Source: Cryomorphaceae bacterium 1068
GTDB taxonomy: Bacteria; Bacteroidota; Bacteroidia; Flavobacteriales_D; Cryomorphaceae
Direction of reading: 5' to 3'
DNA length: 64,000 nucleotides
Assembly: GCA_027214385.1 (NCBI GenBank)
Contig: JAPVXR010000002.1
Span: 248,001 to 312,000 of the forward strand
The translations under genes were made by a program, and so were the position numbers. Every line of letters starts with the position of its first letter. Positions within the stretch are counted from its first letter, which is position 1. Shown here piece by piece: positions 12,832 to 26,330 of the stretch. A model generated the notes under the pieces. That model was not told the DNA's origin, made no database searches, and was given only the letters and a program-made list of their open reading frames with translations.

Positions 12832-13545
12832 ATGACAAAACTAAGCGTCAATATCAACAAGTTTGCCACCCTAAGAAATGCACGGGGCGGTAATAATCCC
12901 GATTTGGTAAAAGTAGCAATCGACTGCCAGTCTTTCGGGGCTGAAGGAATTACCATTCATCCAAGACCTGATGAGCGCCACATCACAACTCAAGATGTAT
13001 ACAATCTAAAACCGATTATCACTACGGAGTATAACATCGAAGGGTATCCCGATGAGAGATATATAAAGCTAGTGGCTGATGCACGGCCCGAGCAAGCCAC
13101 ACTTGTTCCCGATCCGCCCGATGTCTTGACTTCCAATGCAGGCTGGAATACGAAAAAGGAGAAGCAGCTTCTTCAAGACGCTATTGGTCAGCTCAAAGAA
13201 AGCGGATCTCGGGTGAGCATTTTCGTCGATCCCGATCCTGAGTTGGCAGCTGCCGCCAAAGAAGCCGGTGCTGATAGGATTGAGCTTTATACCGAAGACT
13301 ATGCTCGAGGGTATAAGAAGAATCGCGAGGAGGCCATTAAGCCATATATAGAAGCAGCGAATGCAGCACACGAAGCGGGTCTGGAAATCAATGCAGGTCA
13401 TGACCTTGATCTGGAAAATCTACGGTATTTCCACCTCAATATTCCATCCTTGTCTGAGGTGTCCATTGGTCATGCGCTCGTATGTGATGCCCTTTACTTG
13501 GGATTGGAAAACTCCATCAGACTTTATTTAAAAGAATTGAGATGA
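12832..13545 (+). CDS. pdxJ: Pyridoxine 5'-phosphate synthase
   Basis: PdxJ joins 1-deoxy-xylulose 5-phosphate and 3-amino-2-oxopropyl phosphate to form pyridoxine 5'-phosphate (vitamin B6). From the ATG at 12832 the protein is 237 residues, the usual size, and begins MTKLSVNINKFATLRNARGG like other family members. Motifs seen include HPRPDERHI, the ELYTEDYA segment, and NAGHDLDLENL with GHALVCDAL near the end. An ATG three codons earlier (12823) is possible. The stop overlaps the next start by 4 bp. Confidence 0.96.
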   Translation: MTKLSVNINKFATLRNARGGNNPDLVKVAIDCQSFGAEGITIHPRPDERHITTQDVYNLKPIITTEYNIEGYPDERYIKLVADARPEQATLVPDPPDVLTSNAGWNTKKEKQLLQDAIGQLKESGSRVSIFVDPDPELAAAAKEAGADRIELYTEDYARGYKKNREEAIKPYIEAANAAHEAGLEINAGHDLDLENLRYFHLNIPSLSEVSIGHALVCDALYLGLENSIRLYLKELR

Positions 13546-14300
13546 AATTAGCTTTCCGACAAATGGGTTCGGGTGAGCCCTTGATCATTCTGCATGGTCT
13601 TTTTGGGTCGTCTGATAATTGGCAAACCTTGGGGAAACAGTTTGCTGAGGACTTTTCCGTTTACTTGGTCGATCAACGAAACCACGGGAGATCTCCCCAT
13701 AGCGATGATTTCAATTACGACCTTCTGGCCGCAGATCTAAATAAGTTCATGGAAGACCAAGAGATTGATCAGTCGACATTGATTGGTCATAGTATGGGTG
13801 GCAAGACCGTCATGCGTTTTGCTCAGATCTTTCCCGAAAGGGTAAAAAAACTGGTGGTAGCTGATATGGGAGTCAAAGCCTACAAGCCTCATCACCACGA
13901 TGTATTGCGCGCCTTTCAAGCCATCAATCCCGACACCTTGCACTCCCGATCGGAGGCCGAAGAGCGAATAGAGTCGATTATTCCTGAATTCGGGGTGCGT
14001 CAGTTTTTACTCAAGAATCTTTACCGCAAGAAAGAAGGTGGCTATGGGCTTCGTGTAAACTTTCAAGTAATGGAGGAAAAGATGGATCGAATTCTTGAGG
14101 CATTGCCCTCAGAACCATCTGAAGTCGATGCACTTTTTATTCGCGGAGTGAAATCAAACTACGTTCCCGATGCGGATTTTGATCAAATCAGAACGATATT
14201 TCCAAATGCTCAATTTGCTGATTTGCAAGCTGGGCACTGGCTTCACGCCGAAAAGCCCAAAGAATTTTATACCGAGGTAAAAAAATTTGTAACCAAGTGA
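13542..14300 (+). CDS. Alpha/beta-fold hydrolase (YbfF-like esterase)
   Basis: This 252-residue alpha/beta hydrolase has the oxyanion segment LHGLFGSSDNW, the nucleophile elbow GHSMGG (Ser84) and a C-terminal His232 (AGHWLHAEKP). The VDQRNHGRSP motif is typical of the YbfF group of acyl-CoA/short-chain esterases. The substrate cannot be inferred. It is coupled to pdxJ through an ATGA overlap, and two hairpins (14305-14326 and 14361-14390) follow the gene. Confidence 0.88.
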   Translation: MKLAFRQMGSGEPLIILHGLFGSSDNWQTLGKQFAEDFSVYLVDQRNHGRSPHSDDFNYDLLAADLNKFMEDQEIDQSTLIGHSMGGKTVMRFAQIFPERVKKLVVADMGVKAYKPHHHDVLRAFQAINPDTLHSRSEAEERIESIIPEFGVRQFLLKNLYRKKEGGYGLRVNFQVMEEKMDRILEALPSEPSEVDALFIRGVKSNYVPDADFDQIRTIFPNAQFADLQAGHWLHAEKPKEFYTEVKKFVTK

Positions 14301-14360
14301 AAAGTCCTGCCGTAATAGGTGCAGGATTTCATTAATAAGGTTTAATTGGTGATTAAGGTA

Positions 14361-14390
14361 GAAAGGGCTCAACGCAAGTTGAGCCCTTTC
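14361..14390. terminator. Bidirectional terminator between convergent genes
   Basis: A perfect 13-bp stem (GAAAGGGCTCAAC / GTTGAGCCCTTTC) with a GCAA tetraloop lies between the stop of the hydrolase gene and the stop of the convergent PLD gene. A weaker 6-bp hairpin is at 14305-14326. Confidence 0.8.
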
Positions 14391-14415
14391 TTATTTTGGT
14401 ATCTTTTTGAATGAT

Positions 14416-16617
14416 CTATTTCGAAATAGCCAATCGCTGAGTTCCCATTCTGTTCCCTTCGTTGTATTGCAAAATGTATAGTCCAGCAGGTAGACTGGAA
14501 ACGTCGAGAACTAATCCGTTTGATCCATTAAAGGCAGTAATGTTCAACTGCTTGATCATCTTTCCGTCCAATGAGAAAATGGAAACGGTTGCTGCACTTC
14601 CACCACCCTCAAATTGGAGAGTTACCCGATCTGACGTTGGGTTAGGGAATAGCTTGAGTTCAGTTTGAGCTACCTCGTTGGTACTTAATGTCACTTCGTT
14701 GTAACGAGCGGTAAACTCTTGGTGAAACAAATTGGCGATGGTCGCATCGTGGATGATCAACGTGTTTTCATCATTAACCGATTCGGCCGAAGATGTCCAG
14801 TTGTGAGAACCCGTGATGACGATAGGATCTGCATCGGGCTGGCTATGGTCGATGATACCATACTTGTGGTGAAGCTGCCCGAAACCTTCGTGAGAAATCA
14901 CGTTGATTCCTTCGTCTAGTAGGTATTGGAAGTCAGACCCCGTTCCGTTTACATCATTGACCAATCCTCTTGGTTGCACAAAAAGATTTGCCGCGTCCAC
15001 TATTGCATCGGCAAGGATATTATTAGTAATCAATAGTAAGGCAAATTCAAGATCGTATTCGGTGGTTTCAATCGCTTCGGCAATGGCCGTGGTAGTATTG
15101 TCGCTGGGCGAGAAGTAGAGTTCAATATTCTTTCCTCCGATGATAAATTTCTCCGGCGTGTTCTTGAACTTCAACTCTCCGAAACGCGAGTTTCCAGGAT
15201 CGGGCATCTGACCTGATCCACCCCACATTTCTTCGAATTCGATGGTGTAGGCTCTGGCCAAGGATTGATCTTTAATAATGATCAGATTGTTGGGATCCGT
15301 AAAAAGATTTCCTGTTGTAAAATTAGTTGATCCTGTCAGCACTAGCGCGCTATCCACATTGTTTCGATCAACAATGATGAACTTGTTGTGCATTCCACTA
15401 CTCGTAGAATTCTGTCTTTCGAGCACGGGAATGGCGTCATCCAAGTTGGCGAGAGCAGTATTGGCCGTTTGCCCTTCTGCGATGTAGCGAATAGCTACTC
15501 CTCGATCCAAGGCATTGTTTAAAGCCTGCACAATTGTACCGCTATTGATATTGTATCCCGCCATATCAAGGGTTGTCATTGCCCGATCAATTTGTGCAAT
15601 GATGGTGTCATCGGTAGCATTAAAAAGGCTAATAGCGTCTACTCCGGTTGAAACTGAAGTGTCAACCGAGCGATTGAAGTACACCGCAATATCTCCCGAA
15701 GATTCAGAAACGGTGCTAAAGGTCCCTGTTGCACTGGCAGTGTCCTCTCCATTTACGGAGAAAACGCGACAGAAGTATGGCGTTCCCGGCTCCAAGTCCA
15801 CCAAATTCACCACGTGATCTGCTACGGCTTCCTCCAATGTCACAATAGTACCATAATCGGGAGTGGGGCCGTATTCCACCCCGCTGCTTGATGCTACATC
15901 CGTGCTCCAGCTTAGTGTGAAGCTTGTCGTTGAAAGATTGGTCTGCTCTACCTCCGAACCGAAGTTGATATTGCTATCAGAGATGAAGTCTTCCGCAGTT
16001 CTGGGTAGGAGTTGATATCCACTGAAAGGATCAGCAAAACTGAATTGTGAAAGAATTCCGATCAATTCAATTTCTCCAAGTGGGATTAATTCACCTTGTA
16101 AAGGGGAGCTGGAAGGAACGTAAATGATTCCTGTTTCTTCTGAGGCCTCATAGTTGAAAGTTGAGCTAGAGAAAGTGCTACCACCAGCAGCGAAAACCGC
16201 ACCCGAGATTTGCACAAGCATTCCCTCAAAGGTTTCGTCGAGTTCATTTGGTGTTACCTCAAATGGCTGTGGAAGCTGGTTTCCGCTGCTTTCCAATACC
16301 ATTGATGAGATGTCAGGTCCGATTTCGAGTAGGTTTGCAAATTCGGTAATTTCTCCCGTTACGGTAATCTCATCACCAGGTTGTGGCACGAAATCTAGAT
16401 TATCCCAATCAAACCCGGGATAAATGGCAACACCTGCCGTCTCATCTTGGATATAACGGATGCTTCCAAGTTCAGGGCCATTGGTGACGATTCCCGTCAC
16501 GGTTGCCGTTTGTCCTACATTGTAGTTTTCTCGCATATCTGCAATGTTTTCCTGGCCAAAGGCCAAAGCAGAAAGAGCTACAAGAGATGCGGAAAAGGTG
16601 GATTTTAGAATTCGCAT
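14416..16617 (-). CDS. Secreted phospholipase D-fold protein with OB-fold, FN3-like and T9SS type A domains
   Basis: From the ATG at 16617 the protein is 733 residues. Order: signal peptide (1-21); OB-fold-like domain (about 25-115, TVTGIVTNGPELGSIRYIQD); a second similar domain (120-215); an FN3-like domain (220-305); two PLD repeats with complete HxKx4D motifs (His410-Lys412-Asp417 and His583-Lys585-Asp590, each followed by TGS-N); T9SS sorting domain (about 654-733, LFPNPTSDRVTLQF). PLD-fold enzymes cut phosphodiesters in phospholipids or nucleic acids. The OB-folds slightly favour nucleic acid. The gene lies 10 bp after a TonB receptor gene, so the two are probably one operon. Confidence 0.87.
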   Translation of the reverse strand: MRILKSTFSASLVALSALAFGQENIADMRENYNVGQTATVTGIVTNGPELGSIRYIQDETAGVAIYPGFDWDNLDFVPQPGDEITVTGEITEFANLLEIGPDISSMVLESSGNQLPQPFEVTPNELDETFEGMLVQISGAVFAAGGSTFSSSTFNYEASEETGIIYVPSSSPLQGELIPLGEIELIGILSQFSFADPFSGYQLLPRTAEDFISDSNINFGSEVEQTNLSTTSFTLSWSTDVASSSGVEYGPTPDYGTIVTLEEAVADHVVNLVDLEPGTPYFCRVFSVNGEDTASATGTFSTVSESSGDIAVYFNRSVDTSVSTGVDAISLFNATDDTIIAQIDRAMTTLDMAGYNINSGTIVQALNNALDRGVAIRYIAEGQTANTALANLDDAIPVLERQNSTSSGMHNKFIIVDRNNVDSALVLTGSTNFTTGNLFTDPNNLIIIKDQSLARAYTIEFEEMWGGSGQMPDPGNSRFGELKFKNTPEKFIIGGKNIELYFSPSDNTTTAIAEAIETTEYDLEFALLLITNNILADAIVDAANLFVQPRGLVNDVNGTGSDFQYLLDEGINVISHEGFGQLHHKYGIIDHSQPDADPIVITGSHNWTSSAESVNDENTLIIHDATIANLFHQEFTARYNEVTLSTNEVAQTELKLFPNPTSDRVTLQFEGGGSAATVSIFSLDGKMIKQLNITAFNGSNGLVLDVSSLPAGLYILQYNEGNRMGTQRLAISK

Positions 16618-16627
16618 TAAAAATTTT

Positions 16628-19600
16628 TTAAAGTGTTGCCTTAAGGGAAATGCTGAAAGTTCTGGGAAGGCCGAAGTATACCGAAGCTGAGTTAGCATCA
16701 AAAGCTTGAGTTGCAGCTTGCGTTGCCTCCCCACTGAGATAATTTGCTGTAACCAAGGCATCTCCTTCATTATTCGAGGCATCTGAAATATACCTTACAT
16801 TGAATACATTTTCAACAATCAGATTCAGATCCAGTGAAACCTTGCTAAAGTCGAATCTGTAGCCTGCGAAGATTGATGTCAATCCATATCCTGGTATTTT
16901 CCATGATTGTCGGCCTTCATTTCCATCACTAAGAAAAAGCGGGTCAAAGTTTGAATAATGCTTATCGAAATAGACGTATCTACCTTTCAAATAAGCATTC
17001 TTCATGAAATCATACTGAAGGGCTAATCCTATCTGCGTCTGAGGTGCATCACCAACAAAAACTCCTTTGGCATCGAAAGAGACTTCGACCAATTCATCTG
17101 TTGGGCGGTTATTTGGACCTACTTCAAATATGGGTCTTCCTTGGGGATCAAAAAAGTTAACTGTTTTTGCACTGTTCCATCTCCAATCTCCTATTGATGC
17201 AAAACCATCAAGATTAAGCTTTTCGCTTATGACATATTTAAAACTTAACTCTAAACCCATATGAATAGCGTCCATCTCGTTTAGATTCGACTGGACGAAA
17301 ATTCCTCTATCTGGAAGGAAAACTCCAAACCCTCCATCAACCGGTCGATTCTCCCAATATGTATAATAACCGTTTACATTCACGGAAAAATTGTACGTAC
17401 GATATCCGTAGCCTAATTCCGCCGAGCTAATATTCTCATTTTCTACATTGATAAAGAACTGATTGAATCGTCCTAATTCTACAACGTTTCGAAATCTTGG
17501 TGTTCTGCTGATGTAACCCGCATTGATGAATACGGTGTGTCTCTCTTCTATACTTCGACTGACACCAGCCTTTACTGTGAACCCCGGAATGTTTTTCCAA
17601 GGAACTTCAGATACCTGAGATTCAGAATCAAAATACCTAATTTCTCTTGCACCAACGATACTGGAAGTACCGGCTGGCCCATATTCATTTTCATTATTAG
17701 AAGGATTCGTTACAAAAGTAGTATCTCCTACAGTGTTAAATGAAGACGTCGCGCCCGCAGCACTATTGGCAGCTACTATAAGCTCACTACCATTCCAAAA
17801 TCCTACATCGTCATATGCAAGGGCATTTGGAAACCTCTCTCCATCTACTATGATATCACGTCTATTGAAGTAGTCAATCCGCTTATAACCAGTAACAACC
17901 CCCGATAGATTGACAAAAGCTCTCCAATTTTCGTTGTCATTGTACTTGAGTTCAGTAAAAAATGCTCCCCAGCGGATGAGGTTATCGTTGTAATATTGTA
18001 TCCTATCACCTTCTCTCGAGGCATTGCTAACGGAAGTAAATGGTCTGTCGAAGGGAAATTCGTCTGCTGGTGGTACATAGTAATCGCCACCAAGTAGGTT
18101 ATCCACTTCTCGATATTGCTCAGATTGGTAAGTCCTAAAATCGAGACCACCGGCAAAAGTCATTCTTTCACTAATCGTCCAATCAACGGTGGACAGCCAG
18201 CCCCACCAATAATGGTTGTCAAAAGTTTTTCTCAATATGATTGAACTCTTCAAATCAGTTAAAGAAATAGCAGTATCAAGGGGCAGTTGACCAAAAATAT
18301 TGGGCTGAGTATTGGTATTGTAGTCGGTTTGAAAATCAACTTGAAGATTCTCATCATAATCTCCATATCCTAGAGTAGGCACTCTACTTGTCTGTCCACC
18401 CCTTCCGTAGCTGTAATAAACCACGTTGGACAGATAGAGATTTTCATTTATTGTCCAAAAGTCTCGGACAGAAAAAACTGGCTTATGGTAATTTCTAACT
18501 CTTTCATTCTGGATGTCCCCGTTAAGTGTCCCCCAATGGTTGTTGTATCGAAAACCTCTTGAAATGACTCCAGCAGTATCGATAAAGTTATTGTCGGCAG
18601 CAATATCGAAGAATTCACCTTCTGACCAACCGTACTGCTCATTTAGATTAGAAAGTTGTTCCTGAAGGACTGGTCTTTCAGCAACACTAGCGTATTGCAG
18701 ACTTTGATAAACCACATTGTATGAAGATAAACGGTTGTACAAATCGTTGTTTCCTTGGAATAATCCAGCTGCATAGTCTTTGTCATATGTCGCAATTTTC
18801 TGTCGATCCTGCCTTACACCGTATTCGACAGGAGAACCCAAAGCGCTCACAGAAACAATGTGATTGCCCAATTCTTTTTGAACCTTACCGTAATAAAAGT
18901 ACTCTTCTCTGTACTGTTGCTCAGAAAACCCGTCTCCTTTTCTAAATGAACCTGCCAAAGAGAACCCCCACCCTTTATTCAATCGCCCTGAGTTATATCC
19001 AAACGAAGTTCTCAGGGTATTGAATGAGCCGTAATCTTGTCTTAGGTAGACACTCTCTTCGTTTTCAATACTCTTGGTAATAAAGTTGATGGTTCCACCA
19101 ATCGCAGGTATTGCCAACCTCGAGGAAGTCATACCTCTTTGCACTTGCATATTGGCAAGTACTCCGTCTATTCCAAAAGTGTTTGCCCAAAACACGTTTC
19201 CATTATCCATATTGTTGATGGGAATACCATCAATCATTACGGTGATATTCCGATCTTGAAAACCCCTGATTGCTACTCTGGCACCGCCGTCTGGACCTCC
19301 CGTTGGAGATACATAAACTCCTGGTGTAGTATTGAGCAGAAGCGGCAGATCATTCGCACCGAGTTCTTGCTTTATTTGTTTTGGAGTGATGTTTGAAAAG
19401 GCAACGGGTGTTTCCTCAGCGATCGCAAGGTCAGCAACGACTTCGACCTCACGAAGGGTAGTTGTTCCCAGAGCAAAATCGACCTGCTTGAACTTGCTAT
19501 CTACAGTTACTTTTTTCTCGATAGATTCATAGCCCACATAGCTTGCCTTCAATGTATACGTACCGTAAGAGAGGGTGAGCTCATATTTTCCATCGATATC

Positions 19601-19759
19601 TGTAGTAACTCCTTTGCCATCGGCATATACCACCGCTGCACCGATCAGGGTTTCACCGGTTCCTTTATCCTTTAATGTTCCACGAATAACTCCTGAATCC
19701 TGAGCCATTAAAGTCCATGAAAGAATGAACAGGATGGCACTGATTAATCCTCTTTTCAC
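16628..19759 (-). CDS. TonB-dependent receptor with CarboxypepD_reg-like N-domain
   Basis: This 1043-residue outer-membrane receptor has a signal peptide, a carboxypeptidase-regulatory-like Ig domain (about residues 25-100, GTLKDKGTGETLIGAAVVYA), a plug domain (about 125-235, with GARVAIRGFQDRNITVMIDGIP) and a long barrel. I chose GTG at 19759 (start KRGLISAILF) over a GTG 30 bp upstream, because the upstream one lies inside the terminator hairpin of the preceding gene. No SusD partner is present. The flanking genes encode a secreted lamin-tail-domain protein and a secreted PLD-fold enzyme, so the imported substrate is probably a product of those. Confidence 0.92.
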   Translation of the reverse strand: MKRGLISAILFILSWTLMAQDSGVIRGTLKDKGTGETLIGAAVVYADGKGVTTDIDGKYELTLSYGTYTLKASYVGYESIEKKVTVDSKFKQVDFALGTTTLREVEVVADLAIAEETPVAFSNITPKQIKQELGANDLPLLLNTTPGVYVSPTGGPDGGARVAIRGFQDRNITVMIDGIPINNMDNGNVFWANTFGIDGVLANMQVQRGMTSSRLAIPAIGGTINFITKSIENEESVYLRQDYGSFNTLRTSFGYNSGRLNKGWGFSLAGSFRKGDGFSEQQYREEYFYYGKVQKELGNHIVSVSALGSPVEYGVRQDRQKIATYDKDYAAGLFQGNNDLYNRLSSYNVVYQSLQYASVAERPVLQEQLSNLNEQYGWSEGEFFDIAADNNFIDTAGVISRGFRYNNHWGTLNGDIQNERVRNYHKPVFSVRDFWTINENLYLSNVVYYSYGRGGQTSRVPTLGYGDYDENLQVDFQTDYNTNTQPNIFGQLPLDTAISLTDLKSSIILRKTFDNHYWWGWLSTVDWTISERMTFAGGLDFRTYQSEQYREVDNLLGGDYYVPPADEFPFDRPFTSVSNASREGDRIQYYNDNLIRWGAFFTELKYNDNENWRAFVNLSGVVTGYKRIDYFNRRDIIVDGERFPNALAYDDVGFWNGSELIVAANSAAGATSSFNTVGDTTFVTNPSNNENEYGPAGTSSIVGAREIRYFDSESQVSEVPWKNIPGFTVKAGVSRSIEERHTVFINAGYISRTPRFRNVVELGRFNQFFINVENENISSAELGYGYRTYNFSVNVNGYYTYWENRPVDGGFGVFLPDRGIFVQSNLNEMDAIHMGLELSFKYVISEKLNLDGFASIGDWRWNSAKTVNFFDPQGRPIFEVGPNNRPTDELVEVSFDAKGVFVGDAPQTQIGLALQYDFMKNAYLKGRYVYFDKHYSNFDPLFLSDGNEGRQSWKIPGYGLTSIFAGYRFDFSKVSLDLNLIVENVFNVRYISDASNNEGDALVTANYLSGEATQAATQAFDANSASVYFGLPRTFSISLKATL

Positions 19760-19783
19760 AACGGGTGTTTTTGGAAAGAAAAA

Positions 19784-19808
19784 TCCCACTGCCGTTTGGG
19801 CAGTGGGA
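19784..19808 (-). terminator. Rho-independent terminator/attenuator after the LTD gene
   Basis: A 10-bp GC-rich stem (TCCCACTGCC / GGCAGTGGGA) with a short loop is followed on the minus strand by a run of T residues. It lies between the LTD gene stop (19825) and the TonB receptor start (19759), so it may end most transcripts and lower receptor expression relative to the LTD protein. Confidence 0.82.
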
Positions 19809-19824
19809 TAAATTAGTTGGTGAT

Positions 19825-20727
19825 TTACTGCTTTATGAATCGCGTCGAAAATCCTACGGCGCCTTCCATATTTACATTAACAATGTAAGTTCCTGCAGGA
19901 AGGTTATCGAAAGTAATTTCGGCTTGTTCAGCATTGACGATTTTTACTTCAGTAGCAATCAAGCGACCGGTCATGTCAAATACTTCTATGCTTTTGATGT
20001 TCTTATTGGTAGTCAGCGTCAATGGAGCGTTTCCTACTAAAGGGTTAGGGAATATCTGAACATCTACTGATTCTTGTGAACCGCTGCTAAGTGGGAAACA
20101 AGCACAGTCGTGAATTCCAAGATTGCTCCATACATCGGTTCCCAAAGTATCCCAATCCGCAAGAGGTATAAACTGTGTCGGAATAGTGGTAATACCTCCG
20201 GTTATATCAAATTTTCTCACCATGGTTTGATTATCGGTAATAAATGTTCCGTCAGGAGCAGACCATGCAATTCCAGGATCTTCTCCTGGTCTACCAAAAA
20301 CATCAAAAACCGGAGGGGTTTCATCGTATTTTACTAAAACCAAGGCATCGTTTCCGTTCATGAAAGTCGGTGCGGGATATGGGTTGTCCAATTGATCTGC
20401 CAGTGCTTGCAATTCAGGATCGCAGGCTGGAGATATAAATCCACCCAAATCAATATCTTCCGTTTGTCCATTAGCAACTACCCAAGTTCCATAAGGCTCT
20501 ATGGTGCCTGATAAATCAGTTTGGTCCGTTACACTACCTTGACCATTCGACCATCTCTCGAGAATGTATCCGTTCAAGTCAATGGGCTCTGAAGTTGGAT
20601 TGTAAAGCTCATAAGCTTTGTTGTTGCCCGTTCCAACAACGTATTCAGAAATAAAAATTCTGTCGCACTGCGCCGAGGCAGATAAAGAAGCCGCAATTAC
20701 TGCTGCTGAAAGTAGAAGTGTTCTCAT
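19825..20727 (-). CDS. Secreted lamin-tail-domain (LTD) protein with T9SS type A sorting domain
   Basis: The 300-residue protein has a signal peptide (1-19, ending ASA), a lamin-tail domain (about 20-130, with RIFISEYVVGTGNNKAYELYN and LNGYILERW), and a T9SS sorting domain (about 220-300, IFPNPLVGNAPLTL...FSTRFIKQ). LTDs are Ig-like folds often found attached to secreted nucleases, where they probably help bind the substrate or the cell surface. This one has no catalytic domain of its own. The downstream neighbours are a TonB receptor and a PLD-fold enzyme. ATG at 20727 gives a clean signal peptide, 27 nt after a TACTTTTG box. Confidence 0.87.
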   Translation of the reverse strand: MRTLLLSAAVIAASLSASAQCDRIFISEYVVGTGNNKAYELYNPTSEPIDLNGYILERWSNGQGSVTDQTDLSGTIEPYGTWVVANGQTEDIDLGGFISPACDPELQALADQLDNPYPAPTFMNGNDALVLVKYDETPPVFDVFGRPGEDPGIAWSAPDGTFITDNQTMVRKFDITGGITTIPTQFIPLADWDTLGTDVWSNLGIHDCACFPLSSGSQESVDVQIFPNPLVGNAPLTLTTNKNIKSIEVFDMTGRLIATEVKIVNAEQAEITFDNLPAGTYIVNVNMEGAVGFSTRFIKQ

Positions 20728-20753
20728 GTGTTTTGTTATAAGATTTCGTGGAA

Positions 20754-20761
20754 CAAAAGTA
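20754..20761 (-). promoter_or_regulatory. -7 box for the LTD-TonB receptor-PLD locus
   Basis: TACTTTTG on the minus strand, a perfect TAnnTTTG match 26 nt before the LTD start codon. No clear -33 element. Confidence 0.5.
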
Positions 20762-20858: not shown

Positions 20859-23800
20859 GTGGTGATTTCTCCAAAATTATTCAAAACAGAGGTTTTTATT
20901 CGCCCTATATTTGCGGCTGTGAAGGGTCTTTTGTGCGTATCATTCTGTTTTCTATTCTTTCTTTTTCTTGCATTGCCAGAAGATGTTTTTGCGGGTAGAA
21001 ACGAGGGGATAAATGTGCAATATGAATGTTTAGGGGGTAATGATTACTTAGTCAGCGTTCACCTTTTTAGAGATTGCGCAGAATTTACTGATACACCTGA
21101 TTTTCTTGATGTTTTCTTTACTTCTTCCTGTGGTGCCATCGGATTTGTAGAAATTGATTTACAGGAAAGCCTGGAAGTATCACAACTATGTCCCGATTCA
21201 CTGCCTTCCAGCAGTTGCAATGGAGGGGCACTTCCAGGAGTCAATTTGAGTGTTTACAGTGGGGTGGTTAACTTGCCGCCTTGCGCCGATTGGCAAATTA
21301 TCGTGGCAGAGCAAAACCGCGCTTCTGTTCTAAATCTCGTCGATGATGGCACTAGCCGCATCCACGTGGAGGCTTTTTTGAACAATGCCTCGGGAGAGTG
21401 CAATACCTCGCCACAATTGGGATTATTCAATCTCCCTTTTGTCTGCGTAAACAGTGATTTTTTCTACAATCTTTCTTTCAATGACCCCGATGGCGATAGT
21501 TTGGTATACGCGCTCACACCTGCCATTACCTCTGACGAGGCCGATATGCCGCTGGATATGCCATACGAACCGGGCTATTCCCCTGCGGCACCTATTGATA
21601 ACCTGACATTTAATCCCGAAACGGGCCAAATGGACATGACCCCTACCACAGAGGGGAAATACACCATTGTGGTAGAAGTACGAGAATACCGAGATGGCGT
21701 ATTGATCGGAGTCGTTTACCTTGATTTTAATGTTATCGTTATCCCCTGCGCCGTTCCACCGCCCACACCGCTGCCGGGCTCTCTCGAGCAGATTAGTGGC
21801 GGCGGCTATCCGATTAGCGACAATCAAATCGGCATTTGCGCGGGTGATGATTTTTGTTTGGAACTTGACTTTGTTTCAACTGATCCATTGCTGGAACTGA
21901 CCCTCTCGGCAGATATTGCTGAAGCAATTCCCGGCGCCACATTCACTCAGACAGGTGTAAATCCTGCTACCATTGAATTTTGCGGAACTATTCCTTCCGA
22001 TTTCATAGGAGGTGATTTTGTTATTTCGGCGATTGACGATTTCTGTTCCATATATGGTCAAGCCTTTTATGCCGTTCAATTCGTTTTGCGCGAACCCATG
22101 TTTGCGGGACCTGATACGACTATCTGTGCCGGAGAGAGTGTGCAACTTTTTGCTGAAAATGATATCAGCTATACTTGGTCTGATTTGGATGGTAATCAGA
22201 TTCCGGTTGGGCCCGATTTTTCATGCAATCCCTGTGCAAATCCCGTTGCAACACCTGACACATCGAGTGTCTACATCGTGCAAGGTGAGTTTATCGATGG
22301 TGTTTGCGCTGCTACCGATACCGTAGTGGTAGATGTTCCCTTGAGTTTGGAAATAGAGGTGATTCCCGAAACTTGTTTCGAAAATGACGGGGTCATTGAA
22401 ATTGCTGTTTTAAATGGCTCGGGAAGCTATACCGTGGTTTGGGGTGACGATCCAACTATCACTTTGGTAAGAGCCGATCTCAATGAAGGAACTTATAACG
22501 TGACCATCACCGACGAGATATATAGTTGTTCTACCTCCCGAACCTTCATTGTAGAAAATCTCATTTCACCCGATGCCAATGCAGGCGGCGATGATTTTGC
22601 TTGTGGCACAGAATACCAACTAGAGGCCATTCCGAGCTTTGGCGAATCCCTTTGGACATCAAGTGATCCTGAAATTTCAATCTTAGATCCTACTTCCCCG
22701 AATTCTATTGTCACAGCAAGTTCAATCGGGGTTTATGAGCTGGTTTGGACGGAAGAAGATGGAGACCCAATCAATGGATGTATCGACAGGGATACCATAC
22801 AGATCGAGTTTTTTGATCAACCCACCGCTATGATCTCTGCTGTTGATTCGGTGTGCGGGTCAGAAGTAGAGTTGACTGTTTTCGGATCGAATGGAATTCC
22901 GAATTGGGACTTAAGTACAAATGTCACTCTCGTTGATCCGCTCTCTGATCCTGTCATCGCTGTCGCGGATATAGAAGGTTTGGAACTGATTATTTACCAA
23001 AGTGTCAATGGGCCATGTGTTGCGGCCGATACTGCTTCCGTAGAATTCATTGATCAGCCTGTTTCAGATGCGGGAGTTGGCGACATCGTTTGTGGAGATG
23101 AGGTCAACCTCTTTGCGGCGGCTTCAGTAGGAATTGGCGTATGGATTCTGCCTGATGAGCTTATTCCTTTTGGGACTCCGGTTGGGCCTAGTCTTGAGGT
23201 CACGGCTACGGTTTACGGATTTTACGACATCATTTGGCGGGAGACCAATAAAGGTTTTTGCCAAGATTCCGATACCATCGAAGTGGGGTTTGTGGAGCAG
23301 CCTGTTATTGAGCCCCTCGCGGACACACTAATTTGCGGCCCGTCGGCAGAAATTCCAGCTTCTCTTAACTCGGGCAATTTGCTTTGGGAAGGAGACATCG
23401 GATTGTCCATAACGGACAACTCGGCAAACCCGGTAGAAATAGGTGCCGCACCCGGGACATACGAATTGCGCCTTACCGCCGATAATGGCTTTGACTGCAT
23501 TGCTTTTGACACATTAAACCTTACATTTTTGGAGCAGCCCGTTTTGCCTCCAAGTGTCGTTGATTCGGTTTGCGGATTTGAAACCGAATTGATCAGTCCG
23601 ATTTCGGGATTTCCTATTGAGTGGTCATCACCTGACTTGAGCCTTAGTTCTACTACCGATCAACAAGTTATAGCCACCTCCTTGGCTGAAGGTGATTTTA
23701 CCGTGAGCCTAGTGGCAAGCAATCAGGCCGTTTGTTACGACACCACCATTTATGCGCTTAGTTTTTACGAGCAGCCATTGGTCTCTGCACAAGGAGACTT

Positions 23801-26330
23801 TTCTGTTTGCGGACTTATCGCTCAAGTGCAAGCCACTACTTCAGTGGGTGATTTGCTTTGGGAGAGTTCAGCTCAGGGTTCAACTTTTTCTAATCCGAGC
23901 AGTGCTACTACCGATTTTTCGGTGATTGACTTTGGCGAAGCAACCGCAGTCATTCTTGAAAAAAACGGTCCATGCGCCACCACTGATTCTGTTACGGTAA
24001 GTTTCGAGCCATCTCCGCAAATAGTGAACCCCATCTTGTCCTGTACGGGTATTGACGCGACGTATCAGGTTGCTTTTGATGCACTCGGCGATTATGGAAG
24101 CGGGTTTATTGTTACCGGTCTGGAAGGGGCATTTTCAGGAAATGCTTTTCTCTCTGATTTTGTAGAGTCGGGAATGGCCGTCAGTTTTTCTTTGAGCAAC
24201 AATACCGTTTGTACTTCTGCTGATTTTACGGGAAGCCTTACCTGTCCTGTCACCTCCTCTGCAGGCGAGATGAGTTCCGATACGGTGAGAACTTGCGGAG
24301 AGGAGCCCGCTGTGGTCACTCAATCGGTTCCTCCTGTTTTGGATGGAAATGATGTTCTGAAGTATGTCTTGCACGACAGCAATACCAATGTACTTGGAAA
24401 TATTTTTGCTTGGTCTGACATACCCGAGTTTACCTACAATGAGGACCTGCAAGTTAATACGACTTATTATGTTTCTTCCGTAGTGGGAAATCCACTTGGA
24501 GACCAGATTGATTTGACTCACCCGCAGGTATCCATTTCCGTCGGTCAACCGGTTATTTTCCTACCGCAGCCTACTGTTTTGGTGAATTATGACGAGATCA
24601 TTTGCCCCACCGATACGGCTATCGTCCTGTTTGAATTTGCCGGCAATTTGCCTCAAACTTTCACCTATACCTTCGGTGGAATAGAAACGACGCTTCAAGT
24701 GGATGAATCTCCTTTGGAGTTGATGTTCACTGATTCAGGGATGGTGGAACCGCTTTCGACACTTTCTGCTTATTGCGTCGGTGATGGAATCGGAGTCGGC
24801 CAAATCCAATTCCATCCTGAGCCGGATTTGATTTACGATTGGGATCCGGAAATTTGCACGGGAGATACCTCTTTGCTTCAAATCAATACCGTGGGAGTAG
24901 CTCCTTTCCAATTTGACTTGAACGGCGAATTCGGAGAACAGTCCTATCTCATTTCAGGGGATACGGCTTTGGCATTAACCATTGGCGGAAGCTACAGTAT
25001 CACGAATTATGCCGATCAATTATGCCCCGTGCTCGATACATTCGCGCTTGAATTGGTGGAGTATCCACTTCCATTGGTCGATGCAGGCTCTGACGAACTT
25101 GCATGTACGGGAGATACCCTGTTGATCGGGAGTTCCCCAATTTCGGGAGTGACTTATTCATGGGCCTTCAATACATCTGTTTTGGAGCCATCGCTTTCTT
25201 TCACTCCTTTTGCTGCTTTGAATGAAGGGTTTTTCCCTCAAGAGAACGAGCTCATTCTAACGGCTACCGACATTAATTGCACCAATCGGGATACAGTATT
25301 GGTCACCGTGTATAGTTTTCCTGAGCTTCAAATTTTTGCGCCCGGCACCATCTGCCAAGGCGACTCAACAGATGTAATTGGTTACGGTGCGCCGAACTTG
25401 TCATGGTCTCCTGCTCAACTTTTTTCTAATCCCGATAGTTCTCAGACCAGACTCTACACTCCCACGAGCACGGAAATTAGTCTGATGGGAACGAATGAGG
25501 CGGGATGTACTTCTGAAGTCTCATGGGACATCGAAGTAGCTCCCATTCCCGAAGTAGAAATTGTAGCTTCGACAGTCGCCGGCTGCGATCCGCTGCTAGT
25601 CGATTTTACCGCAGTGGATACTGCTGTCGGCTCAACTTATCAATGGAGCTTCAATTCCCAGCCAGTCGGCGAGTCTTCGCCAAATGTGTCTCAAGAATTT
25701 TCGACCGGACAATACACTATTGCCTTAGAAGTGACATCAGCAGCGGGTTGTAGCCGAACGACTCAATTGCCGGGAGGACTATCGGTATACACCACCGAAG
25801 CCGACTTTTCTTTCTTTCCCGAAAAGCCATCCATTACCAGTCCTAAGGTGACTTTTACAAGTCTCGCCCAAAATGCCGAGTTCAACTTCTGGAGAATCGA
25901 CACCCTTGATTTGGGCTCGGGAGAGTGGTACACTTATGAGTTCCCTTCTGACGTTGGTGGAGCATATGAAGTTTGTCTCGACGTAATTTCTAATGAAGGC
26001 TGTGTTGATAGCACTTGTCAAACCGTCACGGTAGCCGATGACTTTTTTGTTTATATCCCCACCGCTTTTACACCAGATGGTGACGGTTTGAACGATCTTT
26101 TTGCTCCTCAACTTTCGAGAATTGACATTGCCGAGTACCGCTTTTGGATAACTAACCGAAATGGTCGCGTGGTCTTTGAAACAAATGACCCCAACGAGAA
26201 ATGGAATGGATCAGAGAATAATGCAGGATACTTTGGCCGCTCAGACCTTTATCAGTGGCACCTCTCGGCAAAGCCTGATTTTAATCTTGAGGAACGGTTT
26301 TACAATGGGAAGGTGATGGTAATCAGGTAG
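20859..26330 (+). CDS. Giant T9SS type B surface protein (gliding-motility-associated C-terminal domain)
   Basis: The 1823-residue protein starts at GTG (no ATG near), has an export signal in residues about 17-45, and ends in the T9SS type B sorting domain (FVYIPTAFTPDGDGLNDLF, about residues 1730-1823). The middle is beta-sandwich repeats, including five tandem units of about 80 residues from residue 652 to 1050, each opening with a (D/E)QP motif and a CG pair (e.g. SVCGSEVEL, IVCGDEVNL, LICGPSAEI). PKD-like segments lie near the end. It resembles SprB-type adhesins carried by the gliding machinery, but type B domains are also found on non-motile surface proteins. It is transcribed alone and has no PorP/SprF gene beside it. 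Confidence 0.88.
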   Translation: MVISPKLFKTEVFIRPIFAAVKGLLCVSFCFLFFLFLALPEDVFAGRNEGINVQYECLGGNDYLVSVHLFRDCAEFTDTPDFLDVFFTSSCGAIGFVEIDLQESLEVSQLCPDSLPSSSCNGGALPGVNLSVYSGVVNLPPCADWQIIVAEQNRASVLNLVDDGTSRIHVEAFLNNASGECNTSPQLGLFNLPFVCVNSDFFYNLSFNDPDGDSLVYALTPAITSDEADMPLDMPYEPGYSPAAPIDNLTFNPETGQMDMTPTTEGKYTIVVEVREYRDGVLIGVVYLDFNVIVIPCAVPPPTPLPGSLEQISGGGYPISDNQIGICAGDDFCLELDFVSTDPLLELTLSADIAEAIPGATFTQTGVNPATIEFCGTIPSDFIGGDFVISAIDDFCSIYGQAFYAVQFVLREPMFAGPDTTICAGESVQLFAENDISYTWSDLDGNQIPVGPDFSCNPCANPVATPDTSSVYIVQGEFIDGVCAATDTVVVDVPLSLEIEVIPETCFENDGVIEIAVLNGSGSYTVVWGDDPTITLVRADLNEGTYNVTITDEIYSCSTSRTFIVENLISPDANAGGDDFACGTEYQLEAIPSFGESLWTSSDPEISILDPTSPNSIVTASSIGVYELVWTEEDGDPINGCIDRDTIQIEFFDQPTAMISAVDSVCGSEVELTVFGSNGIPNWDLSTNVTLVDPLSDPVIAVADIEGLELIIYQSVNGPCVAADTASVEFIDQPVSDAGVGDIVCGDEVNLFAAASVGIGVWILPDELIPFGTPVGPSLEVTATVYGFYDIIWRETNKGFCQDSDTIEVGFVEQPVIEPLADTLICGPSAEIPASLNSGNLLWEGDIGLSITDNSANPVEIGAAPGTYELRLTADNGFDCIAFDTLNLTFLEQPVLPPSVVDSVCGFETELISPISGFPIEWSSPDLSLSSTTDQQVIATSLAEGDFTVSLVASNQAVCYDTTIYALSFYEQPLVSAQGDFSVCGLIAQVQATTSVGDLLWESSAQGSTFSNPSSATTDFSVIDFGEATAVILEKNGPCATTDSVTVSFEPSPQIVNPILSCTGIDATYQVAFDALGDYGSGFIVTGLEGAFSGNAFLSDFVESGMAVSFSLSNNTVCTSADFTGSLTCPVTSSAGEMSSDTVRTCGEEPAVVTQSVPPVLDGNDVLKYVLHDSNTNVLGNIFAWSDIPEFTYNEDLQVNTTYYVSSVVGNPLGDQIDLTHPQVSISVGQPVIFLPQPTVLVNYDEIICPTDTAIVLFEFAGNLPQTFTYTFGGIETTLQVDESPLELMFTDSGMVEPLSTLSAYCVGDGIGVGQIQFHPEPDLIYDWDPEICTGDTSLLQINTVGVAPFQFDLNGEFGEQSYLISGDTALALTIGGSYSITNYADQLCPVLDTFALELVEYPLPLVDAGSDELACTGDTLLIGSSPISGVTYSWAFNTSVLEPSLSFTPFAALNEGFFPQENELILTATDINCTNRDTVLVTVYSFPELQIFAPGTICQGDSTDVIGYGAPNLSWSPAQLFSNPDSSQTRLYTPTSTEISLMGTNEAGCTSEVSWDIEVAPIPEVEIVASTVAGCDPLLVDFTAVDTAVGSTYQWSFNSQPVGESSPNVSQEFSTGQYTIALEVTSAAGCSRTTQLPGGLSVYTTEADFSFFPEKPSITSPKVTFTSLAQNAEFNFWRIDTLDLGSGEWYTYEFPSDVGGAYEVCLDVISNEGCVDSTCQTVTVADDFFVYIPTAFTPDGDGLNDLFAPQLSRIDIAEYRFWITNRNGRVVFETNDPNEKWNGSENNAGYFGRSDLYQWHLSAKPDFNLEERFYNGKVMVIR

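Follow-up and report, generated by a model that had tools for sequence, protein, structure and literature searches.

In a window of 64,000 nucleotides from Cryomorphaceae bacterium 1068 (assembly GCA_027214385.1, contig JAPVXR010000002.1, positions 248,001-312,000 of the forward strand; coordinates below are window positions), three genes on the minus strand encode, in order of transcription, a lamin tail domain (LTD) protein, a TonB-dependent receptor (TBDR) and a secreted enzyme of the phospholipase D (PLD) fold. We propose, with a probability of about 0.7, that this trio is an outer-membrane locus for scavenging nucleic acid, which works through the type IX secretion system (T9SS) and TonB. 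The support is comparative, not biochemical: the three genes co-occur in a large group of bacteria of water and sediment, and the PLD domain has repeatedly been exchanged for Endonuclease I (EndoI). That the trio could bind and cut external nucleic acid and import a product had been suggested in a preliminary description of this DNA, and both comparative results speak for it.

The LTD gene (20727-19825) encodes 300 amino acids with a lamin tail domain (about 20673-20329; Pfam LTD, E 2.6e-12) and a T9SS type A sorting domain (about 20055-19861; Por_Secre_tail, E 7e-11). The receptor gene (19759-16628) starts with GTG and encodes 1043 amino acids, with a CarboxypepD_reg domain (about 19687-19436; Pfam CarbopepD_reg_2) and a plug domain (about 19417-19091; Plug, E 1e-14), after which the barrel follows. 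Plug and C-terminal barrel are those of a TBDR; the barrel was detected by Pfam only in the L119 homologue, which was aligned full-length with the family of the window receptor. The long open reading frames of the receptor and LTD genes both extend upstream past the likely starts. The PLD gene (16617-14416) encodes 733 amino acids laid out as a DUF5689 module (15988-16524; E 4.5e-9), a fibronectin III or purple-acid-phosphatase N-like module (15712-15951), two PLDc_2 domains (E 3.9e-35, in two stretches) and a type A sorting domain (14425-14652; Por_Secre_tail, E 3.4e-12). Its ATG (16617) lies 10 bases from the receptor stop (16628), the spacing given in the preliminary description. The LTD and PLD proteins have N-termini that read by eye like signal peptides, both carry the type A sorting domain of T9SS cargo, and the T9SS component sought in the genome, the sortase PorU, is encoded there (1288 bits). 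Gene order and sorting tails thus confirm that two T9SS-exported proteins flank a TonB receptor on the same strand.

Conservation of this arrangement was first surveyed by a PLD search over 60 related genomes (the window's own included), from which 32 neighbourhoods were fetched. Counting the window, 14 of them held LTD-TBDR-PLD trios (a contig end truncates the PLD gene in L052, and in L039 and L059 it is split in frame), four held LTD-TBDR-EndoI trios (L063, L064, L065 and L069), one held TBDR and PLD without LTD (L046), and 13 were places without the trio (PLD or DUF5689 paralogues, and L051). A second set was chosen by using the receptor alignment alone as query. Directly upstream of the receptor in the best 80 of 554 loci stood an LTD gene (72), a fragment with a T9SS tail, being an LTD gene split in frame or cut (3), a gene on the opposite strand (3) or a contig end (2). 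Downstream, PLD was found in 37, EndoI in 31 and only a DUF5689-like protein in three (one cut by a contig end), the remainder being seven contig ends, one opposite case (L139, with PLD before LTD) and one other, cut. LTD directly upstream and PLD or EndoI within two genes downstream were present together in 63 of the 80, with most misses at contig ends or broken frames. At the protein level, 71 of 76 upstream proteins, P0003 among them, were assigned LTD by Pfam; of the third-gene proteins, 37 of 38 of PLD type had PLDc_2 and all 32 of EndoI type had Endonuclease_1. One of the three opposite-strand cases was L119, where LTD is in frame with the receptor reading frame; a true fusion was considered and dropped, as the LTD sorting tail enters the receptor frame without an end of its own, most likely through a frameshift.

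In a third set of 55 loci, one per genus among the places listed, taken by receptor match from the searches of the order and the class and partly overlapping the set of 80, 49 had LTD, 43 a nuclease (30 EndoI, 13 PLD) and 41 both. Some of the 14 misses (L256, L261, L274, L277, L278, L280, L281, L282, L284, L286, L287, L288, L289 and L297) are contig ends, and the lowest scorers may be other receptors. In the neighbourhoods of exactly 60 other TBDRs of the phylum, taken as control, LTD occurred within four genes in none and a nuclease in three. Association of LTD, receptor and nuclease therefore exceeds chance, and the co-occurrence in relatives on which the preliminary description had made its proposal depend holds over many families.

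The catalytic domain of the third gene alternates between two unrelated nuclease folds, PLD with its HKD motifs and EndoI. On FastTree receptor trees, at least 8 switches were needed with 109 rows, where the trio receptors form one clade (support 100), and at least 12 with 164 rows, 7-8 of these being forced by well supported branches; in the 164-row tree even the best branch leaves two outgroup rows on its wrong side. The DUF5689 module stays as the catalytic domain changes: Pfam found it in 25 of 38 PLD-type and 12 of 32 EndoI-type proteins, and over the module P0001 shares 39% identity with L063_5, which is of EndoI type. Two EndoI-type proteins also carry an LTD. It is mainly because two unrelated nuclease folds exchange behind one receptor that we call the substrate nucleic acid rather than phospholipid.

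Both HKD motifs of the window enzyme are complete (motif 1, 15322-15390, with H410, K412 and D417 followed by GSxN; motif 2, 14797-14871, with H583, K585 and D590 followed by GSxNW), as is expected of a PLD-superfamily nuclease. In an alignment of 38 rows they are unvaried in every homologue that reaches them apart from a single S604C, individual positions being filled in 34 to 37 rows and the rest being gaps: in motif 1 H and K in 37, and D, G, S and N in 36; in motif 2, 35 rows with three gaps, S604 being C in one row. The claim of two complete motifs in the preliminary description therefore stands, and its "OB-fold-like" N-terminal domains correspond to Pfam DUF5689. This region appears in the structural model (pLDDT 86.9) as two runs of strands barely covered by the fold matches; VIA-align listed no solved structure for it, an absence that says nothing about the DUF5689 fold. 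The closest solved folds of the whole model include the nucleases PLD3 and PLD4 (Z 33-34), the former a lysosomal 5' exonuclease according to structure entry titles, with a Streptomyces PLD lower down (Z 25-26).

The PLD fold, and a phospholipase among the best fold matches (entry 7e0m), would also suit an enzyme that scavenges phospholipids or other phosphodiesters, with the receptor importing the head group or another product. This alternative, left open in the preliminary description, has lost ground and we consider it very improbable: the PLD domain has repeatedly been replaced by EndoI, the nearest solved sequences are those of Zucchini and the endonuclease Nuc, and models of the nuclease NucT match the protein, below their cut-offs.

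The model of the LTD protein (pLDDT 91.5) matches the globular domains of lamins B1 and A/C (Z 9.4-9.6) and the C-terminal domains of T9SS cargo (Z 9); over two domains it is most similar to BT_1938, a DUF4876 protein of Bacteroides thetaiotaomicron (Z 10.1 over 170 residues). In sequence the LTD protein is similar to the N-terminal part of ExeM, an extracellular nuclease (NF033680, E 7.5e-17, a match well short of the model's cut-off).

The gap of 65 bases between the LTD and receptor genes contains a strong terminator-like hairpin (19809-19783, minus strand; 11 pairs, 7 of them GC, with a T run after it), confirming the terminator noticed in the preliminary description. The feature generalizes, as such hairpins were found in 41 of 81 homologous LTD-receptor gaps versus 7 of 77 receptor-nuclease gaps, against 7.9% and 2.3% for the respective shuffled sequences, a comparison between gaps that differ in length and loci of which some are near copies. 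Only 23 bases lie between the end of the hairpin and the receptor start, which leaves scarcely enough space for a promoter; the hairpin is thus likely to be a leaky terminator through which the LTD protein is made in excess over the receptor, and expression of the receptor and PLD genes would probably depend on read-through. The likely promoter of the whole trio is TACTTTTG (20754-20761, minus strand), picked out by eye, which fits TAnnTTTG, the consensus of the Bacteroidota -7 element; no -33 element was found by eye.

The scavenging we propose would proceed as follows. The LTD protein and the DUF5689-nuclease would leave the cell through the T9SS and probably be held at its surface, where the LTD protein, in excess through the leaky terminator after its gene, would gather extracellular nucleic acid, DNA or RNA, near the receptor. 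With DUF5689 as its guiding module, the nuclease would cut the nucleic acid, the TBDR would import oligo- or mononucleotides, and periplasmic 5'-nucleotidases would release phosphate and nucleosides to feed the cell. Genes for such enzymes stand alongside many EndoI-type loci, a split 5'-nucleotidase being present at 11 of 30 in the genus set and at 6 of 31 in the best 80 of 554. At L063 (10256-11850) the gene of the C-terminal domain precedes that of the metallophosphatase beside an EndoI-type trio, and the protein, the one whose signal was read, has by eye a twin-arginine-like one. Similar splits occur in L125, L131, L141, L144, L146, L147, L273, L275 and L292 (with divergent genes in L273 and L275), and further cases in L294, L295, L299, L300, L303, L304, L306 and L307.

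Extracellular DNA might also be handled for purposes other than feeding: the trio could remodel the biofilm matrix or protect the cell from phages or free DNA, and the receptor would then import some unrelated compound. In other bacteria, extracellular nucleases do act in biofilms according to PMC6085458, and PADLOC returned weak matches of the PLD domain to DrmC, among others. These matches are general to the PLD fold and were dropped as a defence assignment; moreover, the distance between receptor and nuclease genes is in most cases between a few and a hundred bases, the pair is kept across the class, and 5'-nucleotidases join many of the loci, all of which makes a non-feeding role improbable.

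A different use of the same parts is suggested by Riemerella anatipestifer, where the outer membrane protein RA0C_RS04915 (CarboxypepD_reg) and its neighbour RA0C_RS04920 (DUF5689, DUF5017) are reported to be essential for natural transformation, DNA being proposed by the authors to pass through RA0C_RS04915 (PMC8459023). Mutants in tonBA or tonBB are described as impaired in transformation, tonBB perhaps via iron (PMC8383284). By analogy, the trio receptor could carry long DNA for recombination while the nuclease only trims it. The trio, including EndoI-type third genes, has DUF5689 in common with the Riemerella protein, by Pfam name, and a T9SS PLD nuclease is found near competence-type loci in three genomes (L051, L308 and L309; two of the five loci fetched later, L308-L312, have one). 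However, the receptor tree rejected membership of the trio receptors in the competence group: they form a clade apart from the competence-type L051_2 and L196_9 (support 100 in the 109-row tree; the 164-row tree misplaces two outgroup rows). The trio includes no DUF5017-type partner, and a DUF5689+DUF5017 protein was found neither in the window nor in the whole genome, by a search without positive control whose query matched 23 of 149 genomes of the class. Secreted endonucleases and 5'-nucleotidases also fit feeding better than gene transfer, and we regard transformation as an unlikely function of the trio. The competence-type loci themselves (L051, 4612-12139; L308, 3363-12153; L309, 4586-12732) show a TBDR, a DUF5689(+DUF5017) protein, a second T9SS protein and the PLD nuclease nearby, and are possibly hybrids of competence and scavenging.

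Several observations weigh against a scavenging locus. The LTD of ExeM is reported to be dispensable for DNA degradation in vivo (PMC6085458), which weakens the case for a binding role of the LTD protein. Phospholipase D entry 7e0m ties with PLD3 among the fold matches (Z 32.7). The split 5'-nucleotidase accompanies EndoI-type loci only, being absent from all PLD-type loci of the genus set (0 of 13) and of the 80 (0 of 37). The sole other genome of the window's genus (G001) has neither receptor nor PLD, a few receptors of the clade have neither an LTD nor a nuclease gene beside them (L107, L117), and in L053-L056 PLD paralogues stand by themselves, with no LTD or receptor gene. As to the form of these loci, L107 (3316-7087) and L117 (7980-11755) have behind the receptor just a DUF5689-like T9SS protein (about 297 amino acids), and the solitary T9SS paralogues of L053-L056 are homologous to most of the window PLD and lie in a conserved neighbourhood.

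Known systems resemble the trio in part. SusCD polysaccharide utilisation loci likewise group an outer-membrane TBDR carrying CarboxypepD_reg with a surface protein and a degradative enzyme that is secreted; in the trio, in contrast, the surface protein is a T9SS-exported LTD protein, the enzyme is a presumed nuclease and there is no SusD. None was found in a Pfam scan of 76 upstream proteins, the receptor's neighbours being LTD and nuclease, and in an NCBIfam scan (E 0.1) no model named SusC or RagA matched the receptor, which other TBDR models did. Matches to NCBIfam haem/haemoglobin and B12 receptor models lay far below cut-off (83 bits versus 317), and a haem or siderophore receptor was discarded. 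The Riemerella pair also joins a TBDR-type protein to a DUF5689 partner in connection with extracellular DNA; there, however, a DUF5689+DUF5017 protein takes the place of LTD and nuclease, the tie to transformation is experimental (PMC8459023), and the receptor, judged by the stand-ins L051_2 and L196_9, belongs to another clade. ExeM and NucH combine LTD, an OB-type module and nuclease in secreted form, but in one polypeptide with an EEP nuclease, whereas the trio has separate LTD and PLD or EndoI proteins plus a receptor; domain scans found no EEP domain in the window's LTD or PLD protein. The DNA-degradation loci of Ca. Izemoplasma share an extracellular nuclease with a lamin tail domain, co-located there with nucleoside-handling genes, and the main text of that report does not mention a TBDR (PMC8289736). 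PLD3, PLD4, Zucchini and Nuc have the HKD fold and GSxN motifs in common with the window enzyme, which, unlike them, is joined to DUF5689 and fibronectin III-like modules and a T9SS export tail.

At E <= 1e-170, 217 of 299 genomes of the order matched the receptor subfamily, as did 100 of 395 from the class. A looser threshold of 1e-80 gave matches in 99 of 395 genomes of the phylum, and the 60 neighbourhoods fetched from its weaker matches held no trio. Should our reading hold, some three quarters of the genomes sampled from the order, and a quarter of those from the class, possess the receptor of a dedicated nucleic-acid scavenging locus, whose genes annotation lists as an unrelated LTD protein, TonB receptor and PLD or endonuclease. 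Extracellular DNA is a large pool of phosphorus, nitrogen and carbon, and to our knowledge the route of its pieces through the Gram-negative outer membrane is hardly known. TonB receptors would have nucleic acid as one more cargo, a role would be found for DUF5689 and for the LTD proteins of bacteria, and scavenging would be linked to natural competence in Bacteroidota. We give roughly even odds to the wider idea of a widespread TBDR class importing nucleic-acid fragments, in which LTD would grip, an exchangeable DUF5689 nuclease cut and TonB pull, with the competence receptors of Flavobacteriaceae as a sister use, so that eating DNA and taking it up for recombination would share a toolkit. 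The parts belong to known families; what appears undescribed is how they are combined, how widely the locus is spread, that its nucleases are exchanged and that DUF5689 ties in with competence. In the literature searched (with most subscription journals and preprints outside coverage) no title or opening of an abstract described such a locus, no paper had both "TonB-dependent" and "lamin tail", and only one named DUF5689.

Outside the trio clade, L225 (865-12852) has a TBDR, a T9SS protein and EndoI in a row with a 5'-nucleotidase-like gene nearby, possibly an independent version of the trio. Further genes conserved beside the trio in Bacteroidales (FBPase, Mfd, glycosyltransferase, amidohydrolase, and MORN in L105) look like ordinary genome context. 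Divergent from the LTD gene in the window, a gene on the plus strand (20859-26330) encodes a protein of 1823 amino acids with PKD and CHU_C (T9SS type B) domains, and in L039, L040 and L050 the place opposite the LTD gene is taken by related giant genes. At the other end of the trio, a strong hairpin of 14 pairs (14360-14391) lies between the PLD gene and a convergent abhydrolase gene (13542-14300) and could stop transcription from one or both sides.

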